Source: Microbacterium sp. AK031 (GTDB lineage: Bacteria > Actinomycetota > Actinomycetes > Actinomycetales > Microbacteriaceae). From it: a DNA stretch of 64,000 nt. Below the pieces are notes generated by a model, which made no database searches, was not told where the DNA came from, and saw only the letters and a list, made by a program, of their open reading frames with translations. The stretch spans positions 62,001 through 126,000 of the forward strand of contig NZ_JANUCA010000007.1 in the NCBI RefSeq assembly GCF_024807145.1, written 5' to 3'. Made by a program: the position numbers and the translations under genes. Below are positions 42,743 through 57,204 of the stretch, piece after piece. Numbering within the stretch: the first letter of the stretch is position 1; every line of letters begins with the position of its first letter.

Positions 42743-43693
42743 TCAGCAGAAGGAGCTGACCGCCTCCCACGCCGACGGAACCTCGGCCTGCCCGTCACGC
42801 GTCACAGCCGCTTCGATCAGGCCATATGAGCGATCGGAGGCGAAGAACACCTCATTGGGATTGTCGAGTCCGTACGGCTCGAGGTCGACGACGAAGTGAT
42901 GTTTGTTGGGCATCGAGAAGCGGATCTCCGCGATCTCGGGGTGCGCCTCCAGCACCGCACGACCCATCTCGAACAGCGTCGCCTGCAGCGCCGCCGAATA
43001 CCGCCTGGTGAACTCCTCGAGCAGGATGCGCTTCACATCCGCGTAGATCCCGTTGAAGTCCAGGTCTCTGGATCCGGCGTCCGGCGCATAGCGCCAGCGC
43101 GCCGAGACATCCGTCGCCAGAATGCGATCCGTGGTCTCCTTCAGCGACGTGTAGCGATTTTTCGGGAAGCCGACGAATCCGGACTGCGTGGTCTTGAGTA
43201 CCGTCAGCCCCTTCAGCCCGGCGATGATGTGCCGCTCTGGCCCCTCGGCGACGACGACGGCCGTGCGTGTCTCCTGCCCCGTGCGGACGAAGGAGTGGTC
43301 GTGCTCCTCACCGTCGACTTTGATCCGATCCCAGGCATAGCTCTCGGCGAGCCAGCGACCGCCCTCGACCCAGTCGAACTCGCTCGTGAAGTGATCCGAG
43401 AGCCGCAGCAGAAACGTTTCGGGCGAACCGATCCCCTCACGCGCGAAGCAGAAGACGGTGTTCTTCTGGGTGTCGGTCGCGACGACGTGGCCGTTGTCAC
43501 CGTCCAGATGCGCGGCCTGGAAGTCGCCGCGCAGCTGCGAGGTGACGTTGAGGTCCTCGATCGAGTGCCGGTCGCCCTCTTTGGTGACCTTGACGACACG
43601 GACCTCGGCCTTGCCGTACTGATTGGGGCCGAGGACGATGCCGCCGTTCGGGGTCTCTGCGTCGGTCTGGGTGTGGGTCATGATGTCGGTCAT
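42743..43693 (-). CDS. uox: Urate oxidase
   Basis: A 316-aa cofactor-free uricase oxidising urate to 5-hydroxyisourate with release of H2O2. The motifs 'LVLKTTxSGF'-like 'LTVLKTTQSGFVGFPKNRYT' and 'DRILATDVSARWRY' with 'MPNKHHF' are all present. It is the last gene of the eight-gene allantoin/urate operon, 4 bp after uraH. The downstream enzymes UraH and UraD and a peroxiredoxin for the H2O2 are encoded in the same operon. Confidence 0.95.
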   Translation of the reverse strand: MTDIMTHTQTDAETPNGGIVLGPNQYGKAEVRVVKVTKEGDRHSIEDLNVTSQLRGDFQAAHLDGDNGHVVATDTQKNTVFCFAREGIGSPETFLLRLSDHFTSEFDWVEGGRWLAESYAWDRIKVDGEEHDHSFVRTGQETRTAVVVAEGPERHIIAGLKGLTVLKTTQSGFVGFPKNRYTSLKETTDRILATDVSARWRYAPDAGSRDLDFNGIYADVKRILLEEFTRRYSAALQATLFEMGRAVLEAHPEIAEIRFSMPNKHHFVVDLEPYGLDNPNEVFFASDRSYGLIEAAVTRDGQAEVPSAWEAVSSFC

Positions 43694-43697
43694 CGTT

Positions 43698-44042
43698 CTA
43701 ACTTCCTCGGTAGGTCGAATATGCGAAGGGGCTCAGCAGCAACGGCACGTGATAGTGACGCTGCTCGTCATCGACGACGAACGTGAGCACGACTTCGGGA
43801 TAGAAGGTGGGAGTACCGGTGCGGGCGAAGTACCCACCGGTGTCGAAGTGGAGCCGGTAGGTGCCGGCGGGCAGCGCCTCGGGCCCGAGCTGCTTCGCCC
43901 GGCCGTCAGCATCCGTGACGGCCTCGGCGAGCAGCATCCATTCGCCGTCCCGAAGAGCGGAGAGCACCACCGTGATGCCAGGAGCCGGCAGCCCCTGAAC
44001 GGCATCGAGCACGTGAGTAGTGATATGCGACACAGCAGTCAT
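43698..44042 (-). CDS. uraH: 5-Hydroxyisourate hydrolase
   Basis: A 114-aa transthyretin-like protein. The N-terminal 'SHITTHVLDAVQG' and C-terminal YRGS tetrapeptide, with the conserved His and Arg residues, identify the hydrolase that turns 5-hydroxyisourate into OHCU. It overlaps uraD by 4 bp. Confidence 0.95.
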   Translation of the reverse strand: MTAVSHITTHVLDAVQGLPAPGITVVLSALRDGEWMLLAEAVTDADGRAKQLGPEALPAGTYRLHFDTGGYFARTGTPTFYPEVVLTFVVDDEQRHYHVPLLLSPFAYSTYRGS

Positions 44043-44536
44043 GCGGTGATCGTTCCTCTCAGTCGGAGCAGTGCGATCTCTCGCAGCTGCCCGGCGATGA
44101 TCCGCTCTTCCGAGTCGGGGTCGTGCTGCAGCCGTTCTCGCAGGCTCGACAGGATCTCTGCCGCGGAGCGTCCGGCGGCGCGGATCAGGAAGACCCGGCC
44201 GAAGCGCTCCTCGTATGCGAGGTTGCCGTCGCGAAGCGCCCGCTGCACCTCGGCATCAGACGGGTCGACCCCGGCCTGCTCTGAGCGCGACAGCGTCGCC
44301 TCTCTGCTGTCCCCTCCCGCGCGCTCGCCGATCCGGGGATGGTGAGCGAGCGCCGATTCGATCTCCTCGGTCGTGAACGGATCGGCGGCCCGAGCCGCCT
44401 CCGTCACAAGGGAGTCCACCGACTCGAAGGGACGGCGATCGACGATGTCTTCACACCATCGCGTCACATCGATACACGGCCGGAGCGCGGTGACAGCGTC
44501 GCCCCGCTCCGCCAGATTGAACTGCTCAAGCAACAT
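44039..44536 (-). CDS. uraD: OHCU decarboxylase
   Basis: A 165-aa helical protein that decarboxylates 2-oxo-4-hydroxy-4-carboxy-5-ureidoimidazoline to S-allantoin. The catalytic His and substrate loop are in 'ALAHHPRIGER' (near residue 66), with 'NLAYEERFGRVFLIRAAGRS' downstream. Its neighbours uraH and uox support the call. It lies 30 bp after the peroxiredoxin gene. Confidence 0.93.
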   Translation of the reverse strand: MLLEQFNLAERGDAVTALRPCIDVTRWCEDIVDRRPFESVDSLVTEAARAADPFTTEEIESALAHHPRIGERAGGDSREATLSRSEQAGVDPSDAEVQRALRDGNLAYEERFGRVFLIRAAGRSAAEILSSLRERLQHDPDSEERIIAGQLREIALLRLRGTITA

Positions 44537-44566: not shown

Positions 44567-45043
44567 TCATTTCAGCAAGGCATCCCTGAGGCGGGCGATG
44601 TGGCCCTCCGCCTTGACGTTGTACTCCACGGACGAGATGACGCCATCGGCGTCGACCACCACCGTCGTGCGGATCAGACCGTCGAACGTGCGACCGTTGA
44701 CCGTCTTCTGCCCCCACGCGCCCCATTCCCTCGCCACAGCGGAATCCTCATCGGAGAGCAGCGGAAAGCTCAACTGCTCCGCCTCCGCGAACTCCGCGAG
44801 CCTCGACACCGGATCGGGCGAGATCCCGAGCACGGCGTAGCCGGCGCCCTGGAACGATCCGAGATTGTCACGGAAGTCGCACGCCTCGGTGGTGCAGCCC
44901 GGCGTGAACGCCGCGGGATAGAAGTACACGATCACGGGCGTGCCGCGCAGCTCGGACAGAGTGCGCTGCTGTCCGGATGCATCCGTGAGCGTGAAGTCCG
45001 GAGCGGTCTGGCCGACCTCGAGCTCTTCAGATGAGTTGATCAT
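44567..45043 (-). CDS. bcp: Thioredoxin-dependent peroxiredoxin (Bcp/PrxQ type)
   Basis: A 158-aa peroxiredoxin that reduces H2O2. The peroxidatic Cys is in '[15 protein letters not shown]' (near residue 50) with a second Cys five residues on, the arrangement of PrxQ enzymes. The [10 protein letters not shown] strand precedes it. It overlaps the glxK::allB gene by 4 bp and precedes uraD-uraH-uox, so it is made together with uricase, whose reaction produces H2O2. Confidence 0.93.
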
Positions 45044-47631
45044 GCGGTTTCTCCATTCTCGATGTGCTCAGCAGTTCCCCGTCGCAGCAGCCGCCCTCGA
45101 GGCGCGTCGCTCTCGACCGGCGCGCCCGCCAGGAAGGTCGTTCGCACGATACCCGTGAGCTCCTGCCCGTCATAGGGGGTGATCGGATGCCGGTGCGAGA
45201 GCCGTTTCGCATCGACGGTGAACGTCTCGTCCGGGGCGAAGATGGCGAAATCCGCCGCGCCGCCCTCGACGATGCGGCCCTTGTCCACGAGACCGACCCT
45301 GGCGGCCGGCTTCTCCGACATGAGCGACACGATCTGCTCGAGCGAGAAGCCGCGCTGGCGCGCGTGCGTCCACACGAGCGAGAGCCCCAACTGCAGCGAC
45401 GCGATGCCTCCCCAGGCCAGCGAGAAGTCGCCGTCGCCAGCGAACTTCATCTCGGGTGTGGACGGCGAATGATCGGAGACGATGTAGTCGATCGTTCCCT
45501 CGGTAAGCCCGCGCCACAGTTCGTCGCGGTTTCCTTCCTCCCGAATGGGCGGGCAGCATTTGAAGGCGGTGCTCCCCTCGGGGATGTCTTCGGCGGCGAG
45601 AGTCAAATAGTGGGGGCAGGTCTCGACAGTCAGGTCGACGCCGTCGGCGCGCGCGGCGGCGATGCGGCCGAGGGAGTCGCCGTTGGACAGGTGCAGGATG
45701 TGAGCGCGCACACCGGTGTCGGCTGCGCCCTGGATCACCTCGGCGATCGCGGCATCCTCTGCGGAACGCGGCCGTGAGGCGAGGAACGGCGCATACTCGC
45801 GGCTGCCCGGCTGCACCGATTCCTCGATGATGTGCGCGTCCTCGGCGTGCACGACCAGCAACGAGTCCAGCCCCGCCAGCACTTCCATCGCCTCGCGCAT
45901 CTCCGCGACCGACACATCGGGGAACTCCTCCACGCCGGAAGGGAGCAGGAAGCACTTGAATCCGTAGACGCCCTCGTCGTGCAGCGCGACGAGCTCGGCG
46001 ATGTTGCCGGGGATCACACCGCCCCAGAATCCGACGTCGATGAAGACCCGCCCCTCGGCGACGGCCCGCTTCTCGTCGAGCGCTGCGACTGAGACGGTGG
46101 GAGGGATGCTGTTGAGCGGCATGTCCACGATCGTCGTGACCCCACCCACCGCGGCGGCCCTGGTGGCGGACTCGAAGCCCTCCCACTCGGTGCGCCCCGG
46201 CTCGTTGACGTGCACGTGCGTGTCGACCAGACCGGGCAGCAGGACCTCATCGGCGACGAGTTCGACGACCTGATCGGCGTCGAGGCCGGTTCCGGCAGCG
46301 GCGATCTCGGCGATGCGACCATCGCGCACTCCGACTTCGGCTGCCGCGAAGGCGCCGTCGATGAGGGCACGACCCCGCAGGACGAGGTCGTAGCGCTGTG
46401 CCGGGGCATGGGTCGCGGAAGCCGGCACTTCGTGATCGGCGGTCGCCGGAACCGAACCGACGTGACCCGCTGTCGACGGAGCCCGAGTTTCCTGAGCGAT
46501 CTCCTCAGCGATCTCGCGCACCAGATCCTCGGCGAGCTGTTCGAGCAGCGCTCCGGCCTCGGCCATGCTGCGCTCGCCGTCGGGTTCGAGCTCAGACAGC
46601 GCGCGGGCACCGGCGAACCCGGCATCCGCGATCGCCTCGGCCGACAGCGTCGTCCGCCCGCACACGGCATACACCGGCAGACCGGCAGCGGCAGCGGCCC
46701 GCGCGACGCCCACCGGGGTCTTGCCCATCAGGCTCTGCTCGTCGAGGCTGCCCTCGCCCGTGATCACGGCATCCGCGCCCTGCAGCCTCGAGGCGAGGTT
46801 CGTCACCTCGAGCACGACATCCACGCCCGCACGCCGAGTCGCGCCGAGCGCGATCGCAGCGAATCCCACCCCACCGGCAGCACCCGCGCCCTCGCGAGAT
46901 GCGGCTTCGGCAGCCGGCACCGTGAGCGCGTCGCCTGCGCCCAGCACTTCGACGAGTCGGGCAAGACCGGCTTCCAGCGTCGCGACGTCTTCAGCGGTCG
47001 CGCCCTTCTGCGGTCCGAACACCTCTGCGGCGCCGATCGGACCGGTGAGTGGATTGTCCACGTCGCTCGCGAGGATGATCTCGGCGTCTGCCAGCCGCGC
47101 ATCCAGTGCGCTGAGATCCACAGAAGCGAGGCGCACCAGAGCGGCGCCACCGAGCGGCAGCTCTTCGCCCTCGCCGTCGAGGAAGCGCGCCCCGAGCCCC
47201 TGCAGGAGCCCTGCCCCACCATCGGTCGAGGCGCTGCCGCCGATTCCGAGCACGATGCGTCGGCATCCGGCATCCAGAGCCGCCCGCACGAGCTGACCGG
47301 TGCCGAGACTCGTCGCCCCAAGTGGGTCCTTGCGCCCTTCCGGCAGCAGGTCGAGACCGGAAGCACGCGCCATCTCGACGACCGCCTCGGTGCGGCGCAC
47401 CGCGAACTCCGCCTCGATCAGGGCGCCGGTGGGACCGGCGACGAACACCGGCCGCGAGGAGAAGCCGGCTGCGAGCACGGCATCCAGAGTCCCCTCGCCA
47501 CCGTCGGCGACGGGAACCGTCACGACCTCGATCGTCGGGTCGGCGCGACGCGCTCCCGAGGCGACCCTTTCAGCCACTTCCGGAGCCGTCAGCGACCCCT
47601 TGAACTTGTCGGGCGCGATGACCAGACGCAT
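45040..47631 (-). CDS. Fused glycerate kinase-allantoinase
   Basis: One uninterrupted 863-aa frame. Residues 1 to about 380 are a glycerate kinase of the GlxK/GarK family ('[16 protein letters not shown]', '[11 protein letters not shown]', '[20 protein letters not shown]', '[13 protein letters not shown]'). A linker of about 30 residues, rich in Ala, Thr and Pro, follows. From residue 413 to the end is an allantoinase (AllB): metal-binding '[16 protein letters not shown]', the probable carboxylated Lys in '[11 protein letters not shown]' and 'VSDHSPS'. AllB opens allantoin to allantoate; the kinase phosphorylates the glycerate made at the end of the same pathway. The start ATG at 47631 is 1 bp beyond the gcl stop. 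In E. coli the two are separate genes of one regulon. Confidence 0.9.
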
Positions 47632-47632
47632 C

Positions 47633-49429
<1,797 letters not shown>

Positions 49430-49458: not shown

Positions 49459-50337
49459 TCACTCGCGACCGGCGAAGGCCGCCGTCAGCTTGAACAGCCC
49501 GGAGTGATCGAGGCCGGAGTCGCCCTGCTGGACGGCGGAGCCGACGAGCTGGGCGACGTGGGCGCCGAGCGGAATCGTGATGCCGGCCTGTCGTGCGGCG
49601 GCGGTGATGATGCCCATGTCCTTGTTGTGGAGGGCGAGTCGGAAGCCGGGGGCGAAGTCGCGATCGAGCATCTTCTGGCCCTTCTGGTCGAGCACCTTGG
49701 AGCCGGCGAGGCCGCCGCCGAGCACCTTGAGGGCGGCATCGGTGTCGACGCCGAAGGCCTCGAGGAAGATGATCGCCTCGGCCAGCGCCTGGATGTTCAC
49801 GGCGACGATCAGCTGGTTCGCGGCCTTCACGGTCTGTCCGGCGCCGGCGGGGCCGACGTGCACGATCGTCTTGCCGACCGACTGGAGGATTTCGTGCGCG
49901 GCGGCGAAGTCGTCATCCGTTCCGCCGACCATGATCGACAGCGCTGCGTCGATCGCGCCCTGCTCGCCACCTGAGACGGGGGCGTCGACGGCGCGGAGGC
50001 CGGCGGCGATCGCCTCGTCCGCGAGCTCCTTGGCGACATCGGGACGGATGCTGGAGGCATCGATCCACAGCGCGCCCTTCTTGGCGTGCGTGAAGATGCC
50101 CTCTTCGCCACGGACGGCGGCGACGACATCAGGGGAATCCGGCACCATCGTGATGATGACGTCGGCGCCCTTCACTGCGTCGGCGATACCGTTCGCGCCC
50201 TGGCCGCCGACGGCGACGAGTTCGTCGATGCGGTCCTGGCTGAGGTTGTAGCCGGTGACGGAATGCCCGGCGGCGAGGAGGTTCTTCGCCATGGGGAGGC
50301 CCATGATGCCGAGGCCGATGACTGCGATGTTGCTCAT
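49459..50337 (-). CDS. glxR: Tartronate semialdehyde reductase
   Basis: A 292-aa 3-hydroxyisobutyrate-dehydrogenase-family reductase. The NAD(P) loop is 'IGLGIMGLPMAKNLLAAGH' at the N-terminus; the substrate motif 'DAPVSGGEQGA' (near residue 118) and the catalytic Lys in 'GQTVKAANQ' (near 170) are visible. It reduces tartronate semialdehyde to D-glycerate. Its position between gcl and hyi confirms the role. Confidence 0.95.
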   Translation of the reverse strand: MSNIAVIGLGIMGLPMAKNLLAAGHSVTGYNLSQDRIDELVAVGGQGANGIADAVKGADVIITMVPDSPDVVAAVRGEEGIFTHAKKGALWIDASSIRPDVAKELADEAIAAGLRAVDAPVSGGEQGAIDAALSIMVGGTDDDFAAAHEILQSVGKTIVHVGPAGAGQTVKAANQLIVAVNIQALAEAIIFLEAFGVDTDAALKVLGGGLAGSKVLDQKGQKMLDRDFAPGFRLALHNKDMGIITAAARQAGITIPLGAHVAQLVGSAVQQGDSGLDHSGLFKLTAAFAGRE

Positions 50338-50388: not shown

Positions 50389-51192
50389 TCAGCGCGTTTC
50401 GCCGACGGCCTCGGCCGCCCACGCGAATGCGGTCTCGATCGGCGCTTTGTACTCGAGGCCGATGTAGCCGGAGTAGCCGAGGTCACGGCTACGTGCGATC
50501 CAGGTGTCGATGGGGAGCGATCCGGTTCCGGGTGCGCCGCGGCCGGGTGCGTCGGCGATCTGGATGTGGCCGAACGATGCGGCGTTCTCTTCGATGACCT
50601 GCGGCACATCGTCGCCGTTCACGGCGAGGTGGTAGAAGTCGGCGAGCAGGGCGAGGTTGCGCGCACCGGTCGAGGTGCGCACGTGGTCGATGACGTCCAG
50701 CGCATCAGCGGCCGTGCGCAGCGGGTAGCGCTCGGCGCCGCTGACCGGTTCGACCAGAACGGTGCCGCCGATGGCAGCGACCGCCTCGGCCGCAGCCGCG
50801 AGGTTCTCGATCGCCACCGCATCCTGAGCGGCAGGATCGACGCCGTCGATGCGGTTGCCGTACAGGGCGTTGAATCCTCTGGTTCCCAATGCGCGGCCGA
50901 TGCCGACGACGACGGCCAGGTTGTCGCGGAACTCCTTGCCGCGGGCGGGCCAGGAGACGAGGCCGCGGTCTCCGTTCGGCATATCGCCGGCGTTGAAGTT
51001 CAGACCGGTCAGCTGAACACCGGCGTCGTGGATGGCGGCGATGAACGCGTCGACCTCGTGGTCGAGCGGAACGGAGGTGGAGAAGGGCCACCAGAACTCG
51101 ACCGCGTCGAACCCGGCAGCCTTCGCTGCGGCCGGGCGCTCGAGCAGCGGGAGTTCGGTGAGAAGGATCGAGCAGTTCACCGTGTACGTCAT
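50389..51192 (-). CDS. hyi: Hydroxypyruvate isomerase
   Basis: A 267-aa TIM-barrel isomerase interconverting hydroxypyruvate and tartronate semialdehyde. It begins 'YTVNCSILLTELPLLERPAAAK'; metal ligands Glu ('LVEPVSGAERYPL') and His/Asp ('LLADFYHLAVNGDD') and the C-terminal 'GYIGLEYKA' are present. It is the first gene of the eight-gene operon hyi-glxR-gcl-glxK::allB-bcp-uraD-uraH-uox. Confidence 0.93.
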   Translation of the reverse strand: MTYTVNCSILLTELPLLERPAAAKAAGFDAVEFWWPFSTSVPLDHEVDAFIAAIHDAGVQLTGLNFNAGDMPNGDRGLVSWPARGKEFRDNLAVVVGIGRALGTRGFNALYGNRIDGVDPAAQDAVAIENLAAAAEAVAAIGGTVLVEPVSGAERYPLRTAADALDVIDHVRTSTGARNLALLADFYHLAVNGDDVPQVIEENAASFGHIQIADAPGRGAPGTGSLPIDTWIARSRDLGYSGYIGLEYKAPIETAFAWAAEAVGETR

Positions 51193-51234: not shown

Positions 51235-51315
51235 GCTATCTTCTGCTAGATGAAAGTCTAGGACGCGGAGAGTGGGCTGTCAATGGTCGCCGTCACGTTC
51301 GCTCGCCGTCACGGA

Positions 51316-51375
51316 CAGCGGAGACGAGTTTCCCGGGTTCACGCGACGATTTACCCGGGAAACTCGTCTCCGCTG
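51316..51375. terminator. 23-bp perfect hairpin upstream of the DUF559-like gene
   Basis: The arms 51316-51338 and 51353-51375 are perfectly complementary over 23 bp (core GAGACGAGTTTCCCGGG), with a 14-nt loop. Unlike the other hairpins of this type it lies between divergent genes, in the leader of the DUF559-like gene, so ordinary 3'-end termination does not explain it. Its core resembles the hairpin just behind that gene. Confidence 0.6.
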
Positions 51376-51493
51376 GCTCTTGGGCGGCGGGGCGGGCGGG
51401 ACTTGGCCTGCACGCGGAGTCGGGAGCACGGGTTATCCCCCGGGGGTGGGAATCGGCGGATGCCGCGGCATCCGCGTGCGTCAGCATCGGCGG

Positions 51494-52462
51494 ATGAAAC
51501 ACCGGATCCCGCTGCCGCAGCACCTGGGACATGCATTCTCGGTCAAGCGTGCCGAAGCCGCCGGCATCCGCCCTGGCCGGCACAGCACGCCCGACCTGCA
51601 CCGTCCGTTCCGCGGCGTCCGTTCCGTCGAGAAGCCGAAGGCCTTCAATGACTTCGTGAACTGCTACGCGCCTCGGCTGAAGCCTGGCCATCGGTTCGGA
51701 GGCATCACTGCGGCGCGCGATTGGGGCCTGCCACTGCCCACGGCATGGACGATGACAGAACCGATCGACGTCGTCGCCCCGTCATCGGGGACCCCACCTA
51801 AGGCTCGCGGAGTGCGTGGGCACCGGCTCCGCGAAGATCGAGCCGAGACCCGCATCCTGAAGGGGCATCCCGTTGTCGATCCGGTCGCGGCGCTGTTCAT
51901 GTGCGCGGGGAATCTCACGGTCACGCAGGCCGTCATCATGCTCGATGCGCTGCTGACGACAGCATCCAACTATCCAGAGTTGGGACCAGGCAGGCCGCTG
52001 AGCACACGTGACGAGATCACCCGTCGACTCGACGAATGGGGGCGGTTCCCTGGAAGCGGCACCATCCGCGCCTCGCTTCCGCTCGCCTGCGAGAGGGTCG
52101 AGTCACCGAAGGAGACCGAGACCCGCCTGCTGCTCGTCGACAGCGGGCTGCCCGAGCCGATCGTGCAGCACGAGGTCTGGGCTGACGGGCGAATGCTCGG
52201 CCGCTGCGACCTCGCCTATCCCGAGCTGAGGATCGCGTTCGAGTACGAGGGCGACGGCCACCGCACGGAGAAGGAGCAGTGGCGCAAGGACATCCAGCGC
52301 CAGCGGTACCTCGAAGGTGAGGGGTGGATCGTCATCCGTTTGACCCAGGCCGACCTTGACAAGCCGGAGATGCTCATCGCCAGCATCCGACGCGCCATGT
52401 CCGCACCCCGCTCTTCTCCGCCTGCCGCAGGCGAGAACAGTTTCCGGGGCTTTAGGGCATGA
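51494..52462 (+). CDS. DUF559-like endonuclease-fold protein
   Basis: A 322-aa protein. The N-terminal region ('GGITAARDWGLPLPTAWTM', 'IDVVAPSS') resembles AbiEi-like regulators. The C-terminal part (about residues 205-305: 'ETRLLLVDSGLPEPIVQHEV', 'GRCDLAYPELRIAFEYEGDG', 'GWIVIRLTQADL') has the layout of the DUF559/Vsr PD-(D/E)xK nuclease fold, with Asp in 'RCDLAYP' and Glu in 'EYEGDGH'. The role is unknown. The stop codon lies in the loop of the downstream hairpin. The start ATG at 51494 lacks a good ribosome site. Confidence 0.7.
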   Translation: MKHRIPLPQHLGHAFSVKRAEAAGIRPGRHSTPDLHRPFRGVRSVEKPKAFNDFVNCYAPRLKPGHRFGGITAARDWGLPLPTAWTMTEPIDVVAPSSGTPPKARGVRGHRLREDRAETRILKGHPVVDPVAALFMCAGNLTVTQAVIMLDALLTTASNYPELGPGRPLSTRDEITRRLDEWGRFPGSGTIRASLPLACERVESPKETETRLLLVDSGLPEPIVQHEVWADGRMLGRCDLAYPELRIAFEYEGDGHRTEKEQWRKDIQRQRYLEGEGWIVIRLTQADLDKPEMLIASIRRAMSAPRSSPPAAGENSFRGFRA

Positions 52463-52536: not shown

Positions 52537-53376
52537 TCAGCCCCAGGGGCGCGGATCCGCACCGCGGGTCAGCATCACCTGACGGTTGACGTCCTTGTAG
52601 AGCAGGTAGCGGAACGGCCCAGGTCCGCCCGCATAACAGGCCTGCGGGCAGAAAGCGCGCAGCCACATGAAGTCGCCGGCCTCGACCTCGACCCAGTCGT
52701 CGTTGAGCCGGTAGACGGCCTTGCCCTCGAGCACGAACAGGCCGTGCTCCATGACGTGCGTCTCTGCGAACGGGATCGACCCGCCCGGCTGGAAGGTCAC
52801 GATGTTGACGTGCATGTCGTGCGAGAGATCATCCGGGTCGGCGAAGCGCGTGGTCGCCCATGCCCCGTCGGTGTCGGGCATCTCGCGAGGCTCGACATCC
52901 TGATCACGGGTGACGAACGACGCAGGCAACGCGATGCCCTCCACGCGCTCGTATGCCTTGCGGATCCAGTGGAACGATGTCGTCGCCGCTCCGTCGTTGG
53001 ACAGCGACCACGTCTCGCCGGGGGAGAGGAACGCGTAGCCGCCTTCGGCGAGAATGTGCGCTTCCCCGGCGACAGTCACCGTCAACTCCCCTGAAGTGAC
53101 GAAGATCACGCCTTCGACCCCCGCCTCAGGCTCTGGCTTCTCCGCCCCGCCGCCCGGCTGGATCTCGACGATGAGCTGCGAGAACGTCGTGGCGAATCCG
53201 GCGATCGGCCGGGCGATGATCCACGAGCGCGTCTTCGTGAAGCCCGGGAGGTTGCTCGTGACGATGTCGCGGAACACTCCCTTGGGGATGACGGTGTAGG
53301 CCTCTTTGACGATGGCGCGGTCCGTGAGCAGCGTGCTCTGATCCGGAAGGCCTCCGGCCGGCGTGTAGTAGCCCAT
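52537..53376 (-). CDS. allE: (S)-Ureidoglycine aminohydrolase
   Basis: A 279-aa bicupin (cupin domains about residues 60-140 and 190-265). The metal-binding 'THVMEHGLFVLEGKAVYRLN' in the second cupin and the start 'MGYYTPAGGLPDQSTLLTDRA' are characteristic of AllE/YlbA. It releases ammonia from ureidoglycine, giving S-ureidoglycolate. It is the last gene of the aceB-DUF6986-allE operon. Confidence 0.93.
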   Translation of the reverse strand: MGYYTPAGGLPDQSTLLTDRAIVKEAYTVIPKGVFRDIVTSNLPGFTKTRSWIIARPIAGFATTFSQLIVEIQPGGGAEKPEPEAGVEGVIFVTSGELTVTVAGEAHILAEGGYAFLSPGETWSLSNDGAATTSFHWIRKAYERVEGIALPASFVTRDQDVEPREMPDTDGAWATTRFADPDDLSHDMHVNIVTFQPGGSIPFAETHVMEHGLFVLEGKAVYRLNDDWVEVEAGDFMWLRAFCPQACYAGGPGPFRYLLYKDVNRQVMLTRGADPRPWG

Positions 53377-53400: not shown

Positions 53401-54669
53401 TCAACTGCGGGCGAGCGTGTTGTCGGCGAGCCGGGGATGCGCGAGCACGGTGAGTTCGTCGACCCGGATGCCGATATCTGCAGCCATCTCGGCTGCGTCG
53501 ATGGCGCCGCACTGCACTCCACGGAGCACGAACCACGCGAGCGCTCGCGCAGTGGCCGGCTCGTCCATGACAGCACCCTCCTCCTGTGCGAGGTAGGCAC
53601 GCAGCCGCGATGCCGCGTCCGGGTAGCCATTCCGGTAGAAGGCATATGTGGCCAAGTACCGCGTCGCCAGTTGATGCGGGTGGAGGTCCCATCCCTGGTA
53701 GAAGCCGCGCTCGAGCGAGCGCCGCACGAGTCGCGCATGCAGCGTCCATGCTTCGGTCGCGCGTTCGCCCACCGGCAGGATGTTCGTCGAGCCGTCGGAG
53801 AGACGGATGCCGGTACCGGCGACCGTGAGCTGCATGATCTCCTTCGCGAGATCGGCGGCGGGATGCTCCATCGACTGATACCCGGCGGCGATGCCGAGCG
53901 AGGCGCTGTAGTCGTAGGTGCCATAGTGCAGCCCCGAGATGCGGCCGGGTGCGACCACCGGCAGCTGCGCCAGCGGCGAGCGCCCGTCGGCGCCGAGCAC
54001 GAGCTGCGGCGTCTCGACCTGCACCTCGAAGCGGATGCGACCGGCTTCCAGTCCGTGGGCGCGCTCGAGAGCGTCGACTGCGATGACCATCGCCTCGACC
54101 TGCGCGGTGGTCGTCACCTTCGGGAGCGTGAGCACCAGTCCGTCGGGCAGCGGGCCGGCATCGAGCAGCCCGCCGATGAACAGGTCGAGGGTACGAAGGC
54201 CGCGTGCGCGAGTCGGCTTCTCGAAGCATTTGAAGCGGATGCCGATGAAAGGGGGAGCCGACCCGGATGCCACGGCATCCGACACCTTCGATGCCGCAGT
54301 CACGACATCCGCGTCCTCCGTGTCGCCGCGATCTCCGTAGCCGTCCTCGAAATCCAGTCGCAGGTCTTCGATCGGCTCGGAGGCGAGCTTGTGGGCCACC
54401 CGCTCCGCCACGGGGCCGATGAGCGCGGCCTCGATGCCCACGTGCGTGGCGAGGCTCTCCATCCCTCCGGCTGCCTCGACGGCGGCGAGCGCCTGCGCAC
54501 CCCACCGTGAGGCCAGATCCGGCGTGAACTGATCGGCGGGAATGTAGACGGTGTGCACCGGCTGGCGTGACCCGCTGTCACCGGGATAGGCGGCCTCCAG
54601 AAGCGAATCGGTCGCGGTGAGGTGCCGATCGATCTTCGCCAGGTCGGCGTCACTGAGTCCGGGGCTCAT
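53401..54669 (-). CDS. DUF6986-like protein (HpcH/HpaI aldolase/citrate-lyase fold)
   Basis: A 422-aa soluble protein. Blocks such as 'LRLDFEDGYGDRGD' (near residue 103), 'LTLPKVTT', 'IRFEVQVETPQLVL' (Glu near 222) and 'GLHYGTYDYSASLGI' recall the metal-binding Glu/Asp and phosphate-type loops of the citrate-lyase beta/HpcH TIM-barrel family. It overlaps aceB by 4 bp and is followed by allE, so a role in ureidoglycolate or glyoxylate handling is likely. The reaction is unknown; it may act on a C-C or C-N bond of a glyoxylate derivative. Confidence 0.75.
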   Translation of the reverse strand: MSPGLSDADLAKIDRHLTATDSLLEAAYPGDSGSRQPVHTVYIPADQFTPDLASRWGAQALAAVEAAGGMESLATHVGIEAALIGPVAERVAHKLASEPIEDLRLDFEDGYGDRGDTEDADVVTAASKVSDAVASGSAPPFIGIRFKCFEKPTRARGLRTLDLFIGGLLDAGPLPDGLVLTLPKVTTTAQVEAMVIAVDALERAHGLEAGRIRFEVQVETPQLVLGADGRSPLAQLPVVAPGRISGLHYGTYDYSASLGIAAGYQSMEHPAADLAKEIMQLTVAGTGIRLSDGSTNILPVGERATEAWTLHARLVRRSLERGFYQGWDLHPHQLATRYLATYAFYRNGYPDAASRLRAYLAQEEGAVMDEPATARALAWFVLRGVQCGAIDAAEMAADIGIRVDELTVLAHPRLADNTLARS

Positions 54670-56285
54670 ACGTCCACCTTGGCGGAGGTGCTGTCGATGA
54701 GCAGCTCGTATGCCGGAAGCGTGAGGAAGTCGACGTACTCGTCGTCGAGGCAGATCTGCGAGATCAGGCGAGCTGCCGGCTGGTAGAACTCCTCGAAGTC
54801 CGCGTCGCTGACGCCGGCGGCGATCTTCGCGACCTCCTCGGCCAACAACCGCTGGACGAGGTCGGCTGTGACCTGCTCACCGGTGTCGGCGAGGGTGGTG
54901 GCGCCCCGAAGCTGCTGCCAGATCTGCGAGCGCGAGATCTCAGCGGTCGCGGCATCCTCCATGAGGTTGTTGATCGCGACGGCGCCGTTGCCGGAGAGCC
55001 AGACCGCGGTGTAGGTGACTGCCACGGCGAGGTTGGTGCGCAGGCCGACCTCGGTCGCGTTTCCGGATGCTGACGCCACATCGAGCAGCTCGTCAGCCGT
55101 GACCGACACTTCAGGTCGTTGACGATCCAGCTGGTTGGGGCGCTCGCCGAGCACCTCGTCGAAGACCTCGCGGCAGATCGGGACGAGGTCGGGATGCGCG
55201 ACCCACGAACCGTCGAAGCCGTCGCCGGCTTCACGGGCCTTGTCGGCGCGCACCTTGTCGAAGGCCGCCTTGGTGGCCTCCACGTCGTTGCGGTTGGGCA
55301 CGAACGCGGCCATGCCGCCCATCGCGACGGCGCCGCGCCGGTGACAGGTCTTGACCAGCAGCTCGGTGTACGCGCGCATGAACGGCGCAGTCATCGCGAC
55401 GTCTGCACGGTCGGGCAGGGCGAACGCCTCGCCCTGGTCGCGGAACACCTTGATCAGGCTGAACAGGTAGTCCCAGCGTCCGGCGTTGAGTCCCGAAGCG
55501 TGATCGCGCAGCTCATAGAGGATCTCGTCCATCTCGAACGCCGCGGGAATCGTCTCGATCAGCACCGTGGCGCGGATCGTCCCCTGGGGGATGCCGAGAG
55601 CAGCCTGAGCATGCACGAACACATCGTTCCACAGACGTGCTTCGCGGTGACTCTCGAGTTTCGGAAGGTAGTAGTACGGACCGTGCCCGTTGGCGATGAG
55701 CTGCCTGGCCGTGTGGAAGAAGTGCAGCCCGAAGTCGACGAGCGATGCGCTCGCGCGTTCACCGTCGATGAGCACATGGCTCTCGGAGAGGTGCCAGCCC
55801 CTGGGTCGGGTGACGACCGTAGGACGGTTCACGTCCGTGCGCAGGGCATAAGCCTTGCCAGCGGGCGATGTGTAGGCGAGCGTGCCGCGGGCTGCATCGC
55901 GGAGGTTCCTGATCCCCTCGACGACGTTCTCCCAGGTCGGGCTCGACGCGTCCTCCAGGTCGGCCAGCCAGACGCGGGCCTCGGAGTTCAGTGCGTTGAT
56001 CGCCATCTTCGCCGGCGAGGCGGGCCCGGTGATCTCGACTCGACGGTCCTCGAGCGCCGACGGGGCGGAGGCGACCTGCCAGTCCGCCTGACGGATGTGC
56101 GCGGTCTCGGCCAGGAAGTCGAGTCGGCCGGTGCGGGCGACCTGCTCACGGCGCAACTGGCGCGCGAGGAGCAGTTCGCGACGCCTGGTGTCGAACTCAC
56201 GGTGCAGGTCTTCCACGAAACGGAGCGCCTCGGCAGTGAGGATGTCATCCGCCGCATCGATGCGGGGCTGGATCTGAATGGTCAT
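54666..56285 (-). CDS. aceB: Malate synthase A
   Basis: A 539-aa enzyme condensing glyoxylate with acetyl-CoA to malate. Signature parts are 'RTDVNRPTVVTRPRGWHLSE' (near residue 162), 'KLESHREARLWNDVF', 'IRATVLIETIPAAFEMDEIL' and the late 'NAMEDAATAEISRSQIWQ'-like segment. No isocitrate lyase is nearby; the glyoxylate here comes from purines. The ATG at 56285 is 37 bp from an AllR-like operator. First gene of a three-gene operon. Confidence 0.95.
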   Translation of the reverse strand: MTIQIQPRIDAADDILTAEALRFVEDLHREFDTRRRELLLARQLRREQVARTGRLDFLAETAHIRQADWQVASAPSALEDRRVEITGPASPAKMAINALNSEARVWLADLEDASSPTWENVVEGIRNLRDAARGTLAYTSPAGKAYALRTDVNRPTVVTRPRGWHLSESHVLIDGERASASLVDFGLHFFHTARQLIANGHGPYYYLPKLESHREARLWNDVFVHAQAALGIPQGTIRATVLIETIPAAFEMDEILYELRDHASGLNAGRWDYLFSLIKVFRDQGEAFALPDRADVAMTAPFMRAYTELLVKTCHRRGAVAMGGMAAFVPNRNDVEATKAAFDKVRADKAREAGDGFDGSWVAHPDLVPICREVFDEVLGERPNQLDRQRPEVSVTADELLDVASASGNATEVGLRTNLAVAVTYTAVWLSGNGAVAINNLMEDAATAEISRSQIWQQLRGATTLADTGEQVTADLVQRLLAEEVAKIAAGVSDADFEEFYQPAARLISQICLDDEYVDFLTLPAYELLIDSTSAKVDV

Positions 56286-56301
56286 GCGACCCCTTCTGTC
56301 A

Positions 56302-56329
56302 TGTGGATAATAACCTCCACAATACGGAA
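56302..56329. promoter_or_regulatory. AllR-like operator at aceB
   Basis: CTCC-ACAATAC-GGAA (56315-56329) matches the TTCC-N7-GGAA pattern in 7 of 8 positions; its centre is 37 bp before the aceB start. It overlaps a second palindrome, TGTGGATAATAACCTCCACA (56302-56321). Confidence 0.55.
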
Positions 56330-56381
56330 GTTTCAAGACCCGACGTGATTCACGGATGAGATAGCCTGAGCGGGAAGTCCT

Positions 56382-56421
56382 TTCCACCATGTGGATAAGT
56401 CTGTTGGTCCACCCTGTGGAC
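56382..56421. promoter_or_regulatory. Paired AllR-like operators at the iclR gene
   Basis: Two perfect 13-bp palindromes, TCCACCATGTGGA (56383-56395) and TCCACCCTGTGGA (56408-56420), are 25 bp apart, so on nearly the same face of the helix. Each fits the wider (T)TCC-N7-GGA pattern. The second is centred 35 bp before the iclR start, which suggests autoregulation. Confidence 0.6.
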
Positions 56422-56448
56422 GAGTGAGTGAAGTCGAGAGGTCGAGCA

Positions 56449-57204
56449 ATGCCCGCATCAGCGTCAGACGGAGTGAAGTCCGTCACCCGAGTCTTCGACC
56501 TGCTCGAGCTCATCGCCGACGCAGGCGGCGATGTCACCCTCAGTGAGCTGTCGGCTTCCGCCGAGCTGCCGCTGCCGACCATCCATCGACTGCTGCGCAC
56601 GCTCGTCTCACTCGGCTACGCTCGCCAGCTCGCGAACAGGCGCTACGCGCTCGGCCCGCGCCTGGTGCGCCTCGGCGAGGCAGCGAACCGCAAGTTCGGC
56701 CGGATCGCGATGCCGCAGCTCAAGGACCTCGTGGAACGCCTCGGTGAGACGTCCAACCTCGCCACGATCGACGGCGACCGCGTGATCTACGTGTCGCAGG
56801 CGCCGTCCCCGCACGCGATGCGCATGTTCACCGAGGTGGGCCGCCGCTCGTACCTGCACTCCACCGGCGTCGGCAAGGCGATCCTCGCGCAGATGAGCGA
56901 TGACGCCGTCCGCGACATCATCTCCCGCACCGGGATGCCGCGTGACACCGAGCACTCGCTCGGAACGATCGACGCACTGCTGGCCGACCTCGCCCTGACG
57001 CGCGAGCGCGGCTATGCGATCGACGACGGCGAGCAGGAGATCGGTGTGCGCTGCTACGCGATGGCAGTGCCGGACATGCCAACTCTCACGGCGGTGTCCG
57101 TTTCCGGTCCGGTCGCCCGTGTCGACGAGGGATTCGCTGAGCGGGCGATCCCCGTACTGCGCGAGGTCGTAGCCGAGATCTCCGCGCTCTCCAGCGCGAC
57201 CTGA
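56449..57204 (+). CDS. IclR-family regulator, AllR-like
   Basis: A 251-aa regulator with an N-terminal winged helix-turn-helix (about residues 12-70, 'VTLSELSASAELPLPTIHRL') and a C-terminal IclR effector domain (about 85-245). It sits beside aceB and within the purine/glyoxylate genes. In E. coli the IclR-type AllR represses gcl, hyi, glxR, allB, glxK and allE and is released by glyoxylate, so the same role is inferred. The ATG at 56449 has a GAGAGG site; a GTG at 56428 is less likely. Confidence 0.85.
   Translation: MPASASDGVKSVTRVFDLLELIADAGGDVTLSELSASAELPLPTIHRLLRTLVSLGYARQLANRRYALGPRLVRLGEAANRKFGRIAMPQLKDLVERLGETSNLATIDGDRVIYVSQAPSPHAMRMFTEVGRRSYLHSTGVGKAILAQMSDDAVRDIISRTGMPRDTEHSLGTIDALLADLALTRERGYAIDDGEQEIGVRCYAMAVPDMPTLTAVSVSGPVARVDEGFAERAIPVLREVVAEISALSSAT

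Follow-up and report, generated by a model that had tools for sequence, protein, structure and literature searches.

What brings the first and the last enzyme of a catabolic route together in one polypeptide? In the stretch of Microbacterium sp. AK031 DNA analysed here (64,000 nucleotides, hereafter the window), a single open frame on the minus strand (45040..47631, 863 residues plus stop, 88.7 kDa) constitutes a glxK-allB fusion gene, in which a glycerate kinase (GlxK) is followed by an allantoinase (AllB). The fusion, present in some Microbacterium and Agromyces, unites the first and last enzymes of an allantoin breakdown route. In E. coli, allB and glxK belong to one regulon and their products catalyse the same reactions as those assigned to the two halves of the fusion. 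They are nevertheless separate genes there, and a transporter gene lies between them in those enterobacterial entries of the plasmid collection whose gene lists cover this place.

One frame, two enzyme domains and a urate operon

The plus-strand frame at 45040-47631 is interrupted by stops, and the coding strand is the minus strand. The mechanical open reading frame starts at 47670 (876 residues); the ATG at 47631 agrees with the aligned relatives and is located one base past the stop of gcl (TGA-G-ATG). At the opposite end (45040..45060, minus strand) a GGAGAA run within the fusion gene precedes the start of prx, and the fusion stop and the prx start overlap as ATGA.

The N-terminal half matched the Pfam family Gly_kinase PF02595 at residues 4-374 (414 bits, cut-off 23) and the NCBIfam glycerate kinase family TIGR00045 at residues 2-372 (369 bits, cut-off 168). 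The C-terminal half matched the Pfam amidohydrolase family at residues 463-837 (87 bits, cut-off 25) and TIGR03178, the NCBIfam allantoinase (AllB) equivalog, at residues 415-849 (546 bits, cut-off 358). An earlier note, made from the letters of the window, had described both halves as complete-looking, and these matches, above curated cut-offs and for the kinase over the whole model, support that description. What we take to be the kinase motifs, around DKFKG, ADGGEGT, ASDVDNP and a further ten-residue stretch, are found in the fusion, and the motif core residues are invariant across 15 aligned fusions (e.g. D8-G12, A42-T48, D190, D192, T291-S295, D297 and Q299). All six AllB metal-ligand residues are in place (H472, H474, K559, H595, H647 and D720), five of them at positions that are presumably ligands beside the lysine. 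This lysine, K146 in AllB, is reported to be a carboxylated metal ligand (PMC10163214).

In a predicted structure of the window protein (mean pLDDT 77, pTM 0.49; below 50 in the linker at 384-411, with the AllB barrel weak in places), the kinase half (model residues 1-380) matched 3cwc (Z 46, rmsd 3.0, 362 residues aligned) and 1to6 (Z 45, rmsd 2.5, 367 aligned), and the AllB half matched 3e74 (Z 36.5, rmsd 3.0, 401 aligned). For the relative G257, which has a 5-residue linker and was modelled from a deeper alignment (pLDDT 93.6, pTM 0.73), the junction was predicted to be ordered and the AllB half matched 8hfd (Z 55.6, rmsd 1.6, 433 aligned) and 3hm7 (Z 55.4, rmsd 1.5, 427 aligned). By score and predicted fold, and for AllB also by its metal ligands, each half is an ordinary member of its family. 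The whole protein is, so far as the literature searched shows, a new architecture built of known enzymes: no description of a glycerate kinase-allantoinase fusion was found in the open-licence PMC papers searched, in agreement with the earlier note, which knew of none.

On the minus strand, the fusion is embedded in the gene order malate synthase, DUF6986, ureidoglycine aminohydrolase, hyi, glxR, gcl, fusion, peroxiredoxin, OHCU decarboxylase, hydroxyisourate hydrolase and urate oxidase (Table 1). Judged by family matches, this operon encodes most steps from urate to 2-phosphoglycerate. Beyond malate synthase lie a divergent IclR-type regulator, a ManD-type dehydratase and xanthine dehydrogenase-like genes. 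Since the malate synthase family match begins at residue 120, the start of this open reading frame is probably placed about 119 residues too far upstream, and the frame as drawn overlaps the divergent IclR-type gene. The space separating hyi from the aminohydrolase gene contains a 396-residue frame of opposite orientation (51272-52462, plus strand) that matched no family at the thresholds used. This space is short in M. aurantiacum but spans about 1.3-1.4 kb in G096, G278, G257, M. murale and the window.

Table 1. Features of the fusion gene and of the surrounding operon (positions in the window)
Feature	Position	Strand	Basis
Urate oxidase, factor-independent (uri)	42743..43693	-	Pfam, NCBIfam
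Hydroxyisourate hydrolase (hiu)	43698..44042	-	Pfam, NCBIfam
OHCU decarboxylase (ohcu)	44039..44536	-	Pfam, NCBIfam
Bcp/PrxQ-type peroxiredoxin (prx), next gene after the fusion	44567..45043	-	Pfam, NCBIfam
Allantoinase domain, residues 413-863 plus stop	45040..46395	-	NCBIfam, metal ligands, fold match
Inter-domain linker, residues ~375-412	46396..46509	-	Relatives' alignment; disorder predicted at 384-411
GTG codon 371, end of last kinase helix, possible internal start for AllB	46519..46521	-	In frame; GAGGA 4 bases ahead
Type-I glycerate kinase domain, residues 1-374	46510..47631	-	Pfam, NCBIfam, fold match
Glyoxylate carboligase (gcl), immediately upstream of the fusion	47633..49429	-	NCBIfam
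Tartronate semialdehyde reductase (glxR)	49459..50337	-	NCBIfam
Hydroxypyruvate isomerase-like (hyi)	50389..51192	-	NCBIfam 242 bits, under cut-off 353
(S)-ureidoglycine aminohydrolase	52537..53376	-	NCBIfam; NF040771 cut-off also exceeded
DUF6986 protein, HpcH/HpaI-like	53401..54669	-	Pfam
Malate synthase A	54666..56600	-	Family match starting at residue 120
IclR-family regulator, divergent	56428..57204	+	Family match

With regard to the middle of the pathway, neither an AllA-type ureidoglycolate lyase (PF04115) nor AllC above cut-off was found in any of the ten genomes searched (0/10 each). The search for allantoicase gave no match, but its positive control gave none either; NF040771, the second family whose cut-off is exceeded by the product of 52537..53376 (minus strand), denotes a bifunctional allantoicase/ureidoglycine aminohydrolase. 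The DUF6986 protein is a candidate for the missing ureidoglycolate step, and the literature search returned no paper on DUF6986 by that name. The Bcp/PrxQ peroxiredoxin gene (44567-45043) is located inside this urate operon, and its product may perhaps counter the peroxide produced by urate oxidase. No such gene was found in the stretches around the six kinase-less operons described below.

Distribution and origin of the fusion

The earlier note had proposed a natural fusion and a count of the genomes that keep the joined form. This proposal was confirmed: the frame, 863 residues in the window, is kept in frame in at least 13 species of two genera (nine Microbacterium and four Agromyces, hereafter the main group). 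The two nearest relatives retain the single frame at 91% and 88% identity, and the fusion persists at identities to the window protein down to 68%. The order hyi-glxR-gcl-[glxK::allB]-prx-ohcu-hiu-uri is common to all 13 fused species. Within the genus of the window, 295 genomes were searched and 52 were classified (30 + 1 + 21), with the fusion in at least eight, a number that is a minimum since it refers to 52 of the 295. Searches of the family, order and class (398, 396 and 394 genomes in overlapping sets, best matches only examined) added at least two main-group Agromyces and the outliers G363 and G815, and a scan of genome contigs (best 80 of 552 loci examined) added at least M. murale, A. 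terreus, A. mediolanus, Kocuria massiliensis and Leucobacter zeae. Among the best 30 of 1256 records of the plasmid collection, the top whole-length match, from Nonomuraea, was split in two pieces.

Of 189 classified loci, copies included, 24 carry the fusion. In 82 the two genes are adjacent but off frame, and in 17 more the adjacent genes are parted by an in-frame stop; 65 loci lack a kinase within 1.5 kb upstream and one lacks AllB. The separate state of the two genes, which the earlier note had mentioned for E. coli, is seen in unfused relatives too. Arthrobacter and its relatives carry adjacent glxK and allB in the same order after hyi-glxR-gcl, mostly with an 8-base overlap, but in two frames that encode two proteins. 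A chance open frame was also considered for the fusion and rejected: 60 other AllB loci, part of those in the searches with an open frame of at least 751 residues, included none fused to a kinase (48 without an adjacent kinase, nine off frame and three with a stop).

The 13 kinase domains formed one clade (SH-aLRT 97, quick tree), so that a single fusion is likely. The 13 fused AllB domains formed one clade (100/99) together with six AllBs whose operons, in stretches of 13-17 kb, are devoid of hyi, glxR, gcl, glxK and prx, the latter being absent from both of the groups distinguished below. In these six operons AllB directly follows the ureidoglycine aminohydrolase gene, and the DUF6986 gene adjoins the aminohydrolase gene in fused and kinase-less operons alike. 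A gcl above cut-off was present in 12 of 12 fused genomes searched vs none of five of the six kinase-less ones. On AllB alone, a single clade of fused AllBs was not rejected (p 0.154). On the concatenated operon core, the fused set as a single clade was rejected (p 4e-5), as were the six kinase-less forms as one clade (p 1.3e-4), which fell into two separate groups, one per genus. Owing to these topology tests and to the single kinase clade, we favour one fusion, after which the kinase half was lost twice along with the glycerate block; a pair of fusions involving near-identical kinases, or gene transfer, seems less likely. The neighbouring genes glxK and allB, which overlap in most of the unfused relatives sampled, would have been joined in frame in an ancestral Microbacterium/Agromyces operon, probably on a single occasion. 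The AllB tree comprised 163 loci after removal of the fetched copies L001, L002 (which holds no AllB), L113, L117, L147, L152 and L156, of ten loci whose match was truncated or interrupted by a stop (including L047) and of nine duplicates; L047 was restored for the kinase tree and the AllB clade test. In a separate alignment lone kinase rows were misaligned to AllB, and the one used in its place has 22 rows fewer, all 13 lone kinases being among those left out.

Four further glxK-allB joins, in K. massiliensis, L. zeae, G363 and G815, fall outside the main group in both trees. These joins have longer linkers, come from one genome each and in two cases contain an in-frame ATG before AllB, and they are less secure than the main group. 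Two Micrococcaceae joins (L043 and L142) have in common the motif NDPxRIRxLIxD... before AllB, which corresponds to an N-terminal extension of AllB. The kinase tree implies at least five changes of fused state and the AllB tree at least seven, losses included; because well-supported branches force only two and five of these, respectively, the number of separate joins is uncertain.

Partnership of the two halves or plain co-expression

The earlier note had pointed out that the two reactions are not consecutive, which is correct, and had seen no obvious reason for their pairing. This second part is incomplete, since a report on E. coli describes binding and activation of AllB by GlxK (PMC10163214). 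According to that report, the Km of AllB for allantoin decreases in the presence of GlxK and 1 mM glyoxylate from >15 to 2.8 mM, while the Mn form of AllB changes little (5.8 ± 1.2 to 3.8 ± 0.9 mM, its Table 2), and GlxK was docked on AllB mostly via residues near the GlxK C-terminus (PMC10163214). In the fusion, this C-terminus is the end joined to AllB. The E. coli complex thus involves the same two enzyme families, with direct binding and glyoxylate-dependent activation, but consists of separate, non-covalently bound proteins of a gammaproteobacterium (PMC10163214), whereas in the fusion both partners are in one chain. Regulation of AllB by a kinase acting several steps downstream is a recent claim from a single species, which its authors judged unlikely to be generally conserved, and the words 'fusion' and 'fused' are absent from the main text of their paper (PMC10163214). 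The natural fusion of that pair in another phylum provides independent, circumstantial support.

A second precedent concerns another member of the superfamily of AllB, for which activation by a partner and fusion of the genes go together. The dihydroorotase of Aquifex, a related cyclic amidohydrolase, is inactive alone and active with aspartate transcarbamoylase, and dihydroorotase is in the same chain as this partner in animal CAD (PMC3880350). Dihydroorotase and transcarbamoylase, however, catalyse adjacent steps of a biosynthetic path (PMC3880350), whereas the steps of GlxK and AllB are several reactions apart.

The reading that we put first, with a probability of about 0.44, is that of a bifunctional enzyme in which the kinase half is the tethered partner of AllB. 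The N-terminal half would phosphorylate glycerate to 2-phosphoglycerate and the C-terminal half would open the allantoin ring, and the fused form would have been retained most likely since the two enzymes work as partners. The tethered kinase would act in cis as E. coli GlxK reportedly does in trans, increasing the affinity of AllB for allantoin as glyoxylate accumulates. Binding and activation are reported for E. coli only; for the present protein, we infer the activity of both halves and their interaction in cis. A stronger form, in which the kinase domain serves the tethered allantoinase as an integral glyoxylate sensor and switches it to high affinity, we consider rather unlikely. Glyoxylate, a late product of allantoin breakdown, would then act via the kinase half, and the last enzyme of the route would drive its first step within one molecule; if so, the regulation described in E. 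coli would be either old or reached repeatedly. In any case, the fusion offers a clean system for testing this regulation, as a single gene of which each half can be cut off, mutated and assayed.

Plain co-expression is a serious competitor, to which we give only slightly less credence than to partnership. The gain suggested in the earlier note, fixed stoichiometry or shared regulation, therefore stays in contention. It holds that adjacent, overlapping genes became joined, with 1:1 production fixed or the join merely tolerated, and that the domains are indifferent to each other, in which case the fusion would be a useful warning on reading function into fusions. The short distance between the genes agrees with this explanation: in the larger stretches, the allB start could be called in 65 unfused adjacent loci, and in 50 of them it overlaps the glxK end, by 8 bases each time. 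So does the lack of linker conservation, together with the linker disorder predicted in the window model. The kinase-less relatives, which manage without a fused kinase, count against partnership, and the rate of evolution of their AllBs is unchanged (ratio 1.14 vs 1.20, p 0.97). Faster evolution of AllB following kinase loss was thus not found. Nor were the docked faces more conserved in the fused set: the GlxK face showed no difference (values as low in 32% of permutations), and the conservation of the AllB face fell short of expectation (values as high in 3% of permutations), in a test that takes the docking, itself a model, as its basis, is approximate in its mapping beyond GlxK residue 338 and includes the four outlying joins among the comparison kinases. 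Both tests are weak, since a docking model underlies the one and two losses of the kinase the other, and neither helps; our weights for partnership and for co-expression are set accordingly.

On the other side, this pair has already been reported to interact (PMC10163214), and the join has lasted across 13 species that diverge down to 68% identity. Joins also concentrate on it: in 97 operon stretches, those of the window and of 96 loci picked for their likeness to the fusion, 17 of 83 glxK-allB pairs are joined, counted as five events, compared with a single join among 394 other neighbouring pairs (p 4e-4). Only pairs seen at least five times were counted, and M. barkeri is present twice (L112, L203). 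When only equally tight gene pairs were compared, the excess was not significant (5/71 vs 1/60, p 0.22). Other tight pairs of the same operons, ohcu-hiu (23) and hiu-uri (22), were never joined, although these numbers are small.

Linker, internal starts and state of the kinase half

The linker had been described as rich in Ala, Thr and Pro, and this holds roughly: residues 373-412 comprise 10 Ala, 5 Glu, 4 Thr and 4 Pro among 40. Between fixed alignment columns, linker lengths in the 13 main-group species were 40 (window), 15, 22, 20, 5, 9, 5, 5, 5, 27, 25, 19 and 23 residues, that of the window being the longest and every one of them in frame, with conservation of neither length nor sequence. 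Among the four closest species, the linker showed 19 synonymous vs 68 non-synonymous codon pairs, in comparison with 640/235 and 668/229 in the two domains, where substitutions are mainly at third codon positions. The preponderance of non-synonymous change in the linker indicates that it is free to vary and yet is kept open.

These features bear on the proposal, improbable in our estimation, that AllB is also or mainly a separate product arising from an internal start near the kinase end or from proteolysis of the linker, which in the window is long and predicted to be disordered. In four of the 13 species an in-frame start at the kinase end is preceded by a GGAGG or GAGGA run 4-5 bases ahead (GTG371 in the window, GTG372 in G257, ATG373 in A. 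mediolanus and GTG373 in Agromyces sp. S2-1-8), so that these species may also make AllB as an additional product. In M. aurantiacum, ATG371 and ATG375 lack such a run, and the outlying joins of Leucobacter zeae (L045) and G815 (L142) have an in-frame ATG before AllB with, by eye, a purine run upstream. Against this, four other species have no in-frame ATG, GTG or TTG between residue 363 and the first AllB strand, the purine runs encode the acidic end of a kinase helix (LAEEL, LAEDL) and may be incidental, and the junction is predicted to be ordered in the 5-residue-linker form modelled, that of G257. Moreover, since the whole frame is free of stops, a full-length product is expected regardless.

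The kinase domain and the pathway genes are gained or lost together, which suggests that the kinase half functions as a glycerate kinase. That it is instead catalytically dead, a purely structural or sensing domain, appears very improbable. Further PF02595 copies in six of 12 fused genomes speak for it, but the fused domain is the sole match to this family in the other six, its motif core residues are invariant in the 15 aligned fusions and it is found only alongside gcl-glxR-hyi. A sequencing or assembly artefact with a missed stop can be set aside as having a negligible chance, since for the main group nothing speaks for it and the independent genomes of 13 species, with differing linker lengths and all in frame, refute it, the four outlying joins being known from one genome each.

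The genome of the window contains a second, lone glycerate kinase (G000:C2:245880-246959). In Agromyces terreus (L037:5995-9159), the frame continues through the peroxiredoxin to give a GlxK-AllB-Prx protein of 1054 residues, with an internal ATG at the usual position of the prx start.
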